Translations under genes and position numbers: made by a program | Assembly (NCBI GenBank): GCA_009779915.1 | Contig: WRBA01000010.1 | Coordinates: 1-64,000 of the forward strand | Direction: 5' to 3' | Length of the DNA: 64,000 bases | DNA from: Defluviitaleaceae bacterium | Lineage (GTDB): Bacteria; Bacillota; Clostridia; Lachnospirales; UBA5962 | Notes under the pieces: generated by a model | What the model was told of the DNA's origin: nothing | Database searches by the model: none | What the model saw: only the letters and a program-made list of their open reading frames with translations | In this document: positions 30,797-45,808 of the stretch, in pieces | How positions within the stretch are numbered: position 1 is the first letter of the stretch | Layout: each line of letters starts with the position of its first letter

Positions 30797-31666
30797 ATGG
30801 CAATGGTTTTTGAGTTGTATAAAGATGTAAAGGCTTTTAATGATGATGTATACGACCTTCTTATGGAAAATGAGGTCGTTAATATGATGATTTTAGGGGA
30901 TTTGGCTGTAGGTTTGACTGCGGAAAATCCAATTGGCTGGCGGGATGCCTCTAAATGGATGATGGCAGCGGTAAAAGATAGTGATTGTGCAGTGGCAGCC
31001 GTCTTTATGATACCGGGAGATAATTTGCAGTTTTATATTAGTAACCGTTTTGGCAGGCAAGATTTAGTTTTAGCTCATCTTGCAAAAGGGCTTGCGGATA
31101 CAGAGGTTTTTATAAAAGGAATATACGTGAAAGCTGACTTAGGGCCAGCTTTTGCTGACGCTTATGTCTTTTATGTTAATACTTGGCATAAGAAAAAATG
31201 CGAACGGTTATATACTCTTAGTAATTGCATAAGCGCAGATATTTTGCTGCAAGGTCATTTGCGCTTAGCTGCGGAAAAGGATTTGGCTTTTATCCCCTAT
31301 TGGCGGGAAGATTTTTTGGGAAATAAAAATATATCTGATGATTATGAAGGGTATAGGGGAATGATTTCAGCGAAAAATCTCTATATTTTGGAGGATGAGG
31401 GTATTCCTGTATCAATGGGCAGGATAGACCAAAAACTTGAAAATATTTGTGGTTTGGGGCTTATATATACCCCTTCCTATTTTAGGAGTAAGGGGTATGG
31501 AACCGCTATTACAGCACATATTAGCAAGCTTTGTCTAGATGAGGGGTGTACGTGTGCCCTTATTGCTGATTTAGCCAATCCTGTCTCTAATAGTATTTAT
31601 CAAAAGATAGGTTATAAGCCTGTTTGTGATATGATTGAGATAGGGTTTGATATTGACAAAAATTGA
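30797..31666 (+). CDS. GNAT-family N-acetyltransferase with extra N-terminal domain
   Basis: 289 residues. The C-terminal 110 residues have the acetyl-CoA binding pattern (GLIYTPSYFRSKGYGTAITAHI, then ANPVSNSIYQKIGYKPV). The N-terminal 170 residues are probably a degenerate GNAT-like half, as in two-domain GNAT proteins. It starts 5 bp after the exporter gene and may be in its operon. The substrate is unknown. Its last codons overlap the promoter of the type I toxin. Confidence 0.8.
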   Translation: MAMVFELYKDVKAFNDDVYDLLMENEVVNMMILGDLAVGLTAENPIGWRDASKWMMAAVKDSDCAVAAVFMIPGDNLQFYISNRFGRQDLVLAHLAKGLADTEVFIKGIYVKADLGPAFADAYVFYVNTWHKKKCERLYTLSNCISADILLQGHLRLAAEKDLAFIPYWREDFLGNKNISDDYEGYRGMISAKNLYILEDEGIPVSMGRIDQKLENICGLGLIYTPSYFRSKGYGTAITAHISKLCLDEGCTCALIADLANPVSNSIYQKIGYKPVCDMIEIGFDIDKN

Positions 31667-31681
31667 CAGGGACTTTACAAT
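31653..31681 (+). promoter_or_regulatory. Promoter of type I toxin mRNA
   Basis: TTGACA, 17-bp spacer, TACAAT; start of transcription expected near 31688, just before the leader arm GGCGTTGCT. Confidence 0.75.
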
Positions 31682-31732
31682 ACAGTTGGGCGTTGCTAAG
31701 CAGTAGGCGGTTAGCCAATCCTCCAAAAAGGA

Positions 31733-31777
31733 GGCTGGTCGGCTCCTTCGGAACCTGCTCGCCCAAGCATCCCGGGT
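31733..31777 (+). ncRNA. 45-nt structured leader module, copy 1
   Basis: GGCTGGTCGG, an 11-nt hairpin segment, then CCTGCTCGCC and CAAGCATCCCGGGT. The same flanks occur at 45623-45667 around a different hairpin. Here it is in the toxin leader directly before the ribosome binding site. Confidence 0.55.
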
Positions 31778-31783
31778 GAGGTC

Positions 31784-31864
31784 GTGAGTACATACGAAGC
31801 GTTAATGTTAATGATTGTTTTTGCAGTCCTAATTATAACAATTCAGCGTGACAAACGAAAATAG
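31784..31864 (+). CDS. Type I toxin, holin-like (Hol-Tox) peptide, 26 aa
   Basis: A GTG-started reading frame of 26 codons encodes a peptide beginning (M)STYEALMLMIVFAVLI and ending in a basic tail (QRDKRK). This N-terminus is the hallmark of the putative holin-like toxin family of Firmicutes, a group of membrane-active type I toxins related in layout to TxpA and Fst. GGTGA lies 4 bases upstream of the start and matches the 3' part of the AGGAGGTGA site. The stop codon overlaps a hairpin (31861-31893). An antisense promoter faces it from the right. Expression would be limited by the antisense RNA and the folded leader. Confidence 0.75.
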   Translation: MSTYEALMLMIVFAVLIITIQRDKRK

Positions 31865-31948
31865 CCGCCCTGTCCTGGAAAACGAGCGGCTATAATCTTT
31901 ATAGTTAATCTTATTCAGGCTAACCGCTTATCAGCAACGCCTTTTTCT
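31853..31948 (-). ncRNA. Predicted antisense antitoxin RNA
   Basis: Defined by the consensus minus-strand promoter at 31955-31983 and by the hairpin at 31861-31893, which on this strand is followed by TTTTCGTTT. The RNA would be about 95 nt and complementary to the last codons and 3' region of the toxin mRNA, the usual overlap in TxpA/RatA- and Fst-type systems. Ends are inferred. Confidence 0.6.
31861..31893. terminator. Hairpin at toxin stop codon, terminator of antitoxin RNA
   Basis: Stem ATAGCCGC / GCGGCTAT. A T-run follows on the minus strand; on the plus strand the run is weak (AATCTTTAT). Confidence 0.7.
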
Positions 31949-31954
31949 ATTTAG

Positions 31955-31983
31955 ATTATATCATTGTTAATGATAATTGTCAA
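31955..31983 (-). promoter_or_regulatory. Promoter of antitoxin RNA
   Basis: Perfect consensus TTGACA, 17-bp spacer, TATAAT on the minus strand. The spacer contains a TATCATT/AATGATA palindrome that could bind a regulator, though the resemblance to a Fur box is partial. Confidence 0.8.
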
Positions 31984-32137
31984 CATGGATAACACCGATA
32001 AGCCTGATTTGATATAAAAAATGGTATATGATAAGTATATAAGTATAAATGATATATTGAAGGCACAAAGGACACAAAGCTTTGATGATGTTAGATGCTA
32101 TTAGATTATAAACTCATATAAAGGGATTTTGTTCATT

Positions 32138-32638
32138 ATGGAAAATTTGTATATAGTTTTAGAAGATTTAACTATGATTCTAAGTCATTCAAATAATTTG
32201 GATACATATCCAAGGTTAATGGTTGTAATAACTTTTATTTATACTATAGCGACAATATTTATTTGTGTATTTAACTTGAAATCTGCTAAAGCTGCAAGAG
32301 AGCAAGCAGCAGAGCAGAAGCGGCAGTTTGATGAAACGAATCGTCCCGTTGTTGATTTTACAATAGAGCCTATGCAAGGAGCCGCGTTAGGCTTAGTTTT
32401 TCAAAATACCGGAAAGAAATTGGCAAGGGAAATTTGTGTTGAAATAAATGATGATTTTATAAATAAGTTAGAGGAAGGGCGTCAAAGGTATATTGTTAAT
32501 TTAACCAAATCAAATTTTATTTTGGGTATAAATCAATCCAAGGTAGCTGGGTTTTGTTTAGTTTCATCCCAATCATATTTACTCAATTTCCCTTCAAGCA
32601 TCAAGCCCTTAAAATCATTCTGCCTAAGTGCCTCGTAG
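32138..32638 (+). CDS. Membrane-anchored protein, probably C-terminally truncated
   Basis: 166 residues: a membrane segment at about 26-46, a helical KSAKAAREQAAEQKRQFDE linker, then a beta-rich domain (RPVVDFTIEPMQGAALGLVFQNTGKK). This resembles small hypothetical proteins that are usually longer. The last 35 codons are read from the antisense strand of the 3' end of trmL (32533-32638), so the original C-terminus has probably been lost. It may be a decaying gene. Surrounding sequence is unusually AT-rich. Confidence 0.5.
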   Translation: MENLYIVLEDLTMILSHSNNLDTYPRLMVVITFIYTIATIFICVFNLKSAKAAREQAAEQKRQFDETNRPVVDFTIEPMQGAALGLVFQNTGKKLAREICVEINDDFINKLEEGRQRYIVNLTKSNFILGINQSKVAGFCLVSSQSYLLNFPSSIKPLKSFCLSAS

Positions 32639-45524: not shown

Positions 45525-45808
45525 AGCCTGTTTAGTATCTCGCTTTCAGAGGGCTTTTGAGGAAATTTTTGTCAGGTGCGGAAACACCGACCCGCGGGAA
45601 CCCATTAAAGCCTGCTTTAATGGGCTGGTCGGACGCTTTGCGTCCTGCTCGCCCAAGCATCCCGGGTAGCAGGCGACACATAATCGAAGATATTACGTAA
45701 AGCCACCCCAAAAAGCTTCGCTTTTCAGGGACCCCGTCGGAGGTGTTGACAAAGCATGGCGGAAAATTTACCAAAAGCACATCGGAATGGAGATACTAAA
45801 CAGGCTCT
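45523..45808. repeat. Inverted-repeat element, 286 bp, with perfect 19-bp ends
   Basis: The ends AGAGCCTGTTTAGTATCTC and GAGATACTAAACAGGCTCT are perfect complements. Inner arms (GAGGAAATTTTTGTCA... and ...TGACAAAGCATGGCGG) continue the pairing. The middle holds several GC-rich hairpins and the 45-nt module shared with the toxin leader. It has the form of a miniature inverted-repeat transposable element, but I see no clear target duplication and no transposase. Confidence 0.75.
45623..45667 (+). ncRNA. 45-nt structured module, copy 2
   Basis: Same 10-nt and 24-nt flanks as 31733-31777, but the internal 11 nt are ACGCTTTGCGT, forming a different perfect stem. No toxin frame follows this copy. 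Confidence 0.5.

Follow-up and report, generated by a model that had tools for sequence, protein, structure and literature searches.

Related type I systems and the locus in the window

The described systems that come closest to the locus analysed here are two pairs from Bacillus subtilis, bsrG/SR4 of the prophage SPbeta and txpA/RatA of the skin element. The bsrG mRNA has a main helix named P1, SR4 pairs with the 3' part of this helix, and the two RNAs interact at their 3' ends (excerpts of PMC6562991 and PMC7430163). In txpA/RatA the RNAs are convergent, overlap at their 3' ends and follow an RNase III route, with a toxin of 59 aa and an overlap of 75 to about 120 nt depending on the source; the excerpts of PMC4147584 and PMC3531473 that describe this pair make no mention of a long 5'-3' helix. 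Fst/par pAD1 combines convergent promoters and a small membrane toxin with direct repeats at the 5' ends, and Fst toxins carry a PXXXG motif (excerpt of PMC7472228). In hok/Sok and aapA/IsoA a long-distance interaction covers the Shine-Dalgarno sequence and is removed by 3' processing. The toxins of these last two systems we take to be of families different from that of the toxin described below.

The window, by which we mean the whole stretch of 64,000 nucleotides of a Defluviitaleaceae genome that was analysed, contains a small locus of this general sort. A sequence-only reading had proposed a compact type I toxin-antitoxin locus with convergent promoters, and the Hol_Tox match of its peptide, the promoters themselves and a paralog in the same genome now back that proposal. 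The GTG-started frame of 26 codons that it had pointed out is present at 31784-31864 on the plus strand and gives the peptide MSTYEALMLMIVFAVLIITIQRDKRK of 26 aa, which is hydrophobic, is without any P or G residue, and reaches 32.4 bits (cut-off 23.3) in Pfam Hol_Tox (PF16935), the family to which it had been assigned. The parts of the locus are as follows:

31653-31681, plus strand: toxin promoter TTGACA-17-TACAAT, 11/12 matches (the promoter of the paralog also has 11/12)
31689-31716, plus strand: 5' arm of the predicted long-range helix and 5' end of the toxin mRNA, from the inverted repeats and the fold
31720-31734, plus strand: CCTCC-AAAAA-GGAGG hairpin of an anti-Shine-Dalgarno and the original Shine-Dalgarno AGGAGG (31729-31734), from the sequence and the minimum-energy fold
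31734-31775, plus strand: dispersed 42-nt element, interposed between the Shine-Dalgarno and the start codon, its ends ambiguous by about 1 nt
31774-31781, plus strand: remaining weak Shine-Dalgarno GGGTGAGG, from the sequence, the fold and the pairing energy
31784-31864, plus strand: 26-aa Hol_Tox toxin frame with GTG start, by its PF16935 match
31861-31893, no strand assigned: hairpin over the toxin stop codon, from the sequence, and in the same place in related loci
31853-31948, minus strand: putative antitoxin RNA of about 95 nt, with ends deduced from promoter and terminator
31918-31941, plus strand: 3' arm of the predicted long-range helix, then TTTTT (31942-31946), from the inverted repeats and the fold
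31955-31983, minus strand: antitoxin promoter TTGACA-17-TATAAT with an extended -10 (TG before the -10), 12/12 matches

Both promoters converge as the sequence-only reading had drawn them (31653-31681 on the plus strand, 31983-31955 on the minus strand), and they are the two best of 8 promoter-like sites in 31200-32500, a number in itself unremarkable (5.5 +/- 2.3 in shuffles). The stop codon, said to lie inside a hairpin, does so: TAG 31862-31864 is within the stem 31861-31868/31886-31893. On the minus strand this hairpin is followed by TTTTCGTTT, the two together being the likely antitoxin terminator; our terminator scan, with a loop limit of 8, missed the hairpin (31861-31893) and flagged none inside the locus on either strand. 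The 3' arm of the toxin mRNA helix is followed only by TTTTT (31942-31946). An Rfam match to atoC, with 21.4 bits below the threshold of 50, was rejected as due to chance.

The paralog, at C34:7390-7699 of the same genome (2.45 Mb in 63 contigs, 93.6% complete), repeats the frame, the inverted repeat and the convergent promoters. Its DNA is 82% identical to that of the window locus over 173 nt and 77-82% identical across matched stretches, and it is without the 42-nt element.

On the features tested, the locus belongs to the TxpA/BsrG (Hol_Tox) kind and not to the Fst kind. Its convergent promoters with an overlap at the 3' side of the toxin gene agree with this placement by layout alone, and its toxin mRNA has a long 5'-3' main helix according to folds and covariation, albeit one that RNAalifold did not return from our alignment A1. 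The BsrG toxin, taken from phage SPBc2, is also a Hol_Tox protein (34.5 bits), and the bsrG mRNA of that phage folds with the same long helix (z -6.04), a terminator following it; as we read the fold, P1 would be this same 5'-3' helix. The window locus shares with bsrG/SR4 the Hol_Tox toxin, the 5'-3' main helix, the hairpin after the stop codon and, in the mechanism proposed below, the interaction of the RNAs at their 3' ends. It differs in the length of its toxin (26 aa against the 38 aa of BsrG) and of its presumed antitoxin (about 95 nt against the 180 nt of SR4), in that no terminator hairpin of the toxin's own follows the 3' arm, and in the 42-nt element in its leader. With txpA/RatA it has in common the convergent RNAs, the 3'-end overlap and the proposed RNase III route, toxin and overlap both being longer in txpA/RatA. 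The 5'-3' pairing of the toxin mRNA, found in the window by prediction and covariation, also recalls hok/Sok and aapA/IsoA; unlike in these, the Shine-Dalgarno sequence is in a separate hairpin outside the predicted long helix.

A predicted long 5'-3' helix in the toxin mRNA

The sequence-only reading had noticed that both RNAs begin alike, with the same inverted repeat, and had considered this unusual. The repeat is there (31689-31716/31918-31941), consisting of an outer part, 31689-31697 with 31933-31941 (9 nt, 100%), and an inner part, 31704-31716 with 31918-31930 (13 nt, 92%), and it outscores 40 of 40 dinucleotide shuffles. That it is unusual finds no support, the repeat being common in Hol_Tox loci and corresponding to the main helix of the bsrG mRNA. 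On our models, it supplies both strands of a long helix that closes the toxin mRNA, one near the 5' end and one near the 3' end: the window toxin RNA, taken from its presumed start to the T run past the second arm, folds its ends together (-92.8 kcal/mol, z -5.07), and in the paralog the 5' and 3' ends are closed on each other (-82.6 kcal/mol, z -7.11). Since the antitoxin would be complementary to the 3' arm, such a closed mRNA explains why both RNAs look alike at their 5' ends.

Related loci were collected by genome searches and from 60 further fetched places; a model built from them gave 105 distinct candidates, of which 23 were dropped by filters (short flanks, long frames, redundancy), leaving 82 non-redundant loci that take in a few non-toxin frames (e.g. 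L028, L081, L132:1233). For 39 of the 82, against some 2 expected, the top-scoring inverted repeat that spans the frame scores above every one of 40 dinucleotide shuffles; for the other 43 it does not. The mismatches in these 39 stems, all scored alike, read on the toxin strand as 111 G-U against 29 A-C, and with the 57% G-U predicted from off-register composition this gives p = 3e-8, an optimistic value because the loci are related. Counted by locus, G-U is in excess in 30 and A-C in 6, with 3 ties. This excess on the toxin strand argues that the pairing is kept in the RNA of that strand rather than in DNA. In addition, the arms of a locus pair better with each other than with swapped arms (mean 44.0 versus 27.7 over the 82 loci): for the 5' region its own 3' region is the best of 82 in 21 loci and among the top five in 53, and from the 3' side the own partner is best in 28 and among the top five in 46.

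RNAalifold did not return the long helix from the 17-locus alignment A1, in which the arms are misaligned by eye, and gave the Shine-Dalgarno hairpin and other pairs instead; this is why we used the locus-wise pairing and arm-swap tests. From nine chosen loci, window included, it did return the helix (the two sets have one locus in common). The covariation score there is 0.303 against a shuffle mean of 0.206, none of 500 shuffles reaching it, though two points favour the helix: it came out of that very alignment, and we had picked the rows ourselves. For further pair types, one of five measures, 84 of 500 shuffles were as high. Taken together, the tests indicate that the long helix is recurrent and covarying in Hol_Tox loci of the order to which the window belongs. 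A limited search of open-access papers found no report of such a helix as a general Hol_Tox property.

In 30 of the 39 loci each end of the repeat has a promoter of at least 9/12 in its vicinity, from -45 to +40 (plus side 35/39, minus side 33/39), a score of 9 being reached by 21% of 625 control windows. In related loci the median start of the hairpin is the stop codon of the toxin; on average, stretches of ten bases contain 6.6 A just ahead of the hairpin, 2.8 T just behind it and 4.3 T behind the second arm. From this hairpin and the A-rich bases in front of it, the antitoxin most likely ends at the stop-codon hairpin, whereas the toxin mRNA most likely extends through the second arm. The terminal lysine codons of the toxin, which encode its basic tail (31849-31860 in the window, and in related loci), seem to double as the U tract of the antitoxin terminator.

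The same architecture occurs on mobile DNA. From 452 plasmid records with Hol_Tox we fetched 4, together with both phage records, and the loci of Lactobacillaceae plasmids and Bacillus-group phages proved to be built like the window locus, with a terminator-like hairpin after the second arm when read by eye. Their repeats exceed 12 shuffles in 4 of the 6 loci and do not in the other 2. The bsrG-type closed mRNA thus appears in these plasmids and phages too, where many such genes are named merely 'putative holin-like toxin'. In L279, L281, L283 and L040 the terminator-like hairpins past the second arm have in common a loop with GTTAGCG, present less exactly in L280 and L282; these loops, seen by eye, are near the likely 5' end of the antitoxin and are possibly recognition loops.

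Two other readings of the repeat have to be set against a helix in the toxin mRNA. That it is a feature of the DNA, for instance a site bound by a protein or the borders of a mobile cassette, would suit the fact that Hol_Tox loci can be multicopy and are numerous on plasmids (452 records). We hold this to be highly improbable, given the strand asymmetry of the mismatches (111 G-U versus 29 A-C), the promoters near both repeat ends and the matching of the arms locus by locus. To an Fst/par-like locus, whose convergent RNAs would pair via 5'-end repeats and a shared terminator and block ribosome binding, we give almost no credence in spite of the convergent promoters, the hairpin between the genes and the GUG start. 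Fst-like direct repeats (DRa/DRb) were not found at the two 5' ends in the window locus, which has only two 12-nt direct repeat pairs located elsewhere; the peptide matches Hol_Tox and, having no P or G, has no PXXXG. The predicted pairing of the first 100 nt of the toxin RNA with the first 45 nt of the antitoxin was as good in 21 of 200 shuffles, and the 5'-5' pairing of the two paralog RNAs in 39 of 200, so that direct 5'-5' pairing, not being above shuffles, was rejected. The sequence-only reading had likened the layout to both TxpA/RatA and Fst: the former comparison stands (Hol_Tox, 3' overlap), and the latter, for all that Fst/par pAD1 has convergent promoters and a small membrane toxin in common with this locus, falls with the absent 5' direct repeats and PXXXG.

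Proposed mechanism

With the toxin mRNA helix as the preferred reading, we regard it as very probable that this is a chromosomal type I locus of the TxpA/BsrG (Hol_Tox) kind, with a closed mRNA and a 42-nt element in its leader. The family, the promoters, the helix covariation, the extra 42 nt and the predicted effect on Shine-Dalgarno strength are given by the computation; from them we infer transcription, transcript ends, toxicity, antitoxin action and RNase III cleavage in the following scheme. The toxin mRNA would start near 31688, encode the 26-aa hydrophobic peptide and extend through 31918-31941, its first 28 or so nt pairing with the 3' arm to give a closed mRNA and the CCTCC/GGAGG hairpin masking the original Shine-Dalgarno. 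The antitoxin, running for about 95 nt from about 31948 to the stop-codon hairpin, would be fully complementary to the last codons of the toxin and to its 3' region, including the 3' arm. It would in this way imitate the 5' arm of the toxin mRNA and rival that arm in binding the 3' arm; the closed mRNA would open, and a long duplex would form (predicted at -184.8 kcal/mol for the presumed full RNAs), most likely a substrate of RNase III, by analogy with txpA/RatA and bsrG/SR4. This evidence agrees with the earlier suggestion of a competition between the shared 5' ends for a single partner, which would be the toxin mRNA's own 3' arm. Predicted pairing of the window antitoxin with the paralog mRNA (-118.3 kcal/mol) and of the paralog antitoxin with the window mRNA (-123.7 kcal/mol) makes cross-protection between the two loci possible. 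The 42-nt element would have been inserted later between Shine-Dalgarno and start codon, leaving only a weak Shine-Dalgarno and probably lowering toxin translation.

A dispersed 42-nt element in the toxin leader

The 42 bases that the window has in excess of the paralog lie between AGGAGG and the start codon (31734-31775), within the stretch that the sequence-only reading described, but were missed there. They form an element in which GGCTGGTCG is followed by a variable hairpin, then by CTGCTCGCCCAAGC and finally by a short tail whose end is near CCCGG; none of the six frames of the window unit contains a stop. Strict copies number 25 in the genome, two of these in the window, and by another strict pattern 5 of 294 further genomes of this order carry the element. 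The second window copy (45623-45667) adjoins a CCCATTAAAG/CTTTAATGGG hairpin. In genome_contigs we found 57 stretches. Of these, 48 belong to records titled Clostridia, Clostridiales, Defluviitaleaceae, Gallispira, Herbinix or Bacillota and 4 to spirochaete MAGs; the remaining 5 (L162, L177, L178, L183 and L188), which come from other phyla and are without the hairpin, look like chance matches. Exact matches of the pattern in viral_contigs were nil. In 69 of 84 element contexts (0.6% in shuffles) the variable stem is perfect over 4 bp or more, with 29 different hairpin sequences. The 15 without such a stem comprise the five chance-like ones, five long variants that this genome contains and five that have mismatches, among these last the window copy (L100), with one mismatch near the base of the inner hairpin stem.

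The element also occurs within genes. Two tandem copies are in frame in a CN-hydrolase gene (L003:1460-1543, C24:26165-26248), adding the peptide WSAPSEPARPSIPG twice, and the CN-hydrolase domain match takes 283 residues to cover 255 profile positions. In two species, represented by L201 (a Herbinix MAG) and L208 (a Clostridiales MAG), a copy is in frame in a long frame, at a distance of 432 residues from its end, in L201 between the PPDK_N and PEP-utilizers domains according to a Pfam scan. Several subfamilies of longer repeats that differ in their flanks contain the core of the element (L050-L053, L042-L043, L046, L048-L049), as if it had been built into several larger elements.

Rickettsia palindromic elements are short dispersed hairpins that also lie within protein-coding genes. 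The 42-nt element has the traits of these (a dispersed, stop-free hairpin, in frame in genes), the host group being different and the likeness one of description. A REP element moved by a Y1 transposase found no support, there being no PF01797 match in the genome (93.6% complete). A limited search of open-access papers found no report of the element, and its peptide and 14-mer DNA word were absent among the matches listed. That it is an undescribed selfish hairpin family of Clostridia and some spirochaetes, spreading in frame, which here split the ribosome-binding site of the toxin and left a muted or re-regulated pair, is a reading that could equally well prove right or wrong; muting and mobility are, again, what we infer.

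The predicted Shine-Dalgarno pairing is -8.4 kcal/mol with the element and -17.7 for the joined flanks without it, the paralog having -16.9 kcal/mol. In the fold, part of the weak Shine-Dalgarno at 31774-31781 is taken up by a stem of 7 bp formed with 31758-31764. The start region is predicted to be about as accessible with the element (0.39) as without it (0.42), so that only Shine-Dalgarno strength argues for muting of the toxin, which on these predictions is likely though not certain. One may go further and see a decaying locus, in which the element abolished toxin translation and the rest is a relic. The Shine-Dalgarno shifted 42 nt from the start, the halved pairing energy and the existence of a copy without the element speak for this; the intact frame, the intact promoters and helix arms, and the 77-82% DNA identity still kept with the paralog over matched stretches make it, in our opinion, rather unlikely. 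The locus brings to light a small dispersed element able to interrupt the translation signal of a toxin with the gene left intact, and the leader bearing it offers a simple natural test of how Hol_Tox toxins stay silent.

Other Hol_Tox copies

A Hol_Tox match over the cut-off is present in 80 of 392 genomes of the order. In the genome of the window there are, besides the two loci compared here, a match above the Pfam cut-off at C24:5488 (26.6 bits) and one below it at C34:6812 (20.7 bits). Contig C34 carries two different Hol_Tox frames about 0.6 kb apart and in opposite directions, L039:813-914 on the minus strand (20.7 bits, below the Pfam cut-off) and L039:1485-1541 on the plus strand. One genome of the order (G218) has the highest count in this survey, with 12 Hol_Tox matches whose E-values are no higher than 1e-4.
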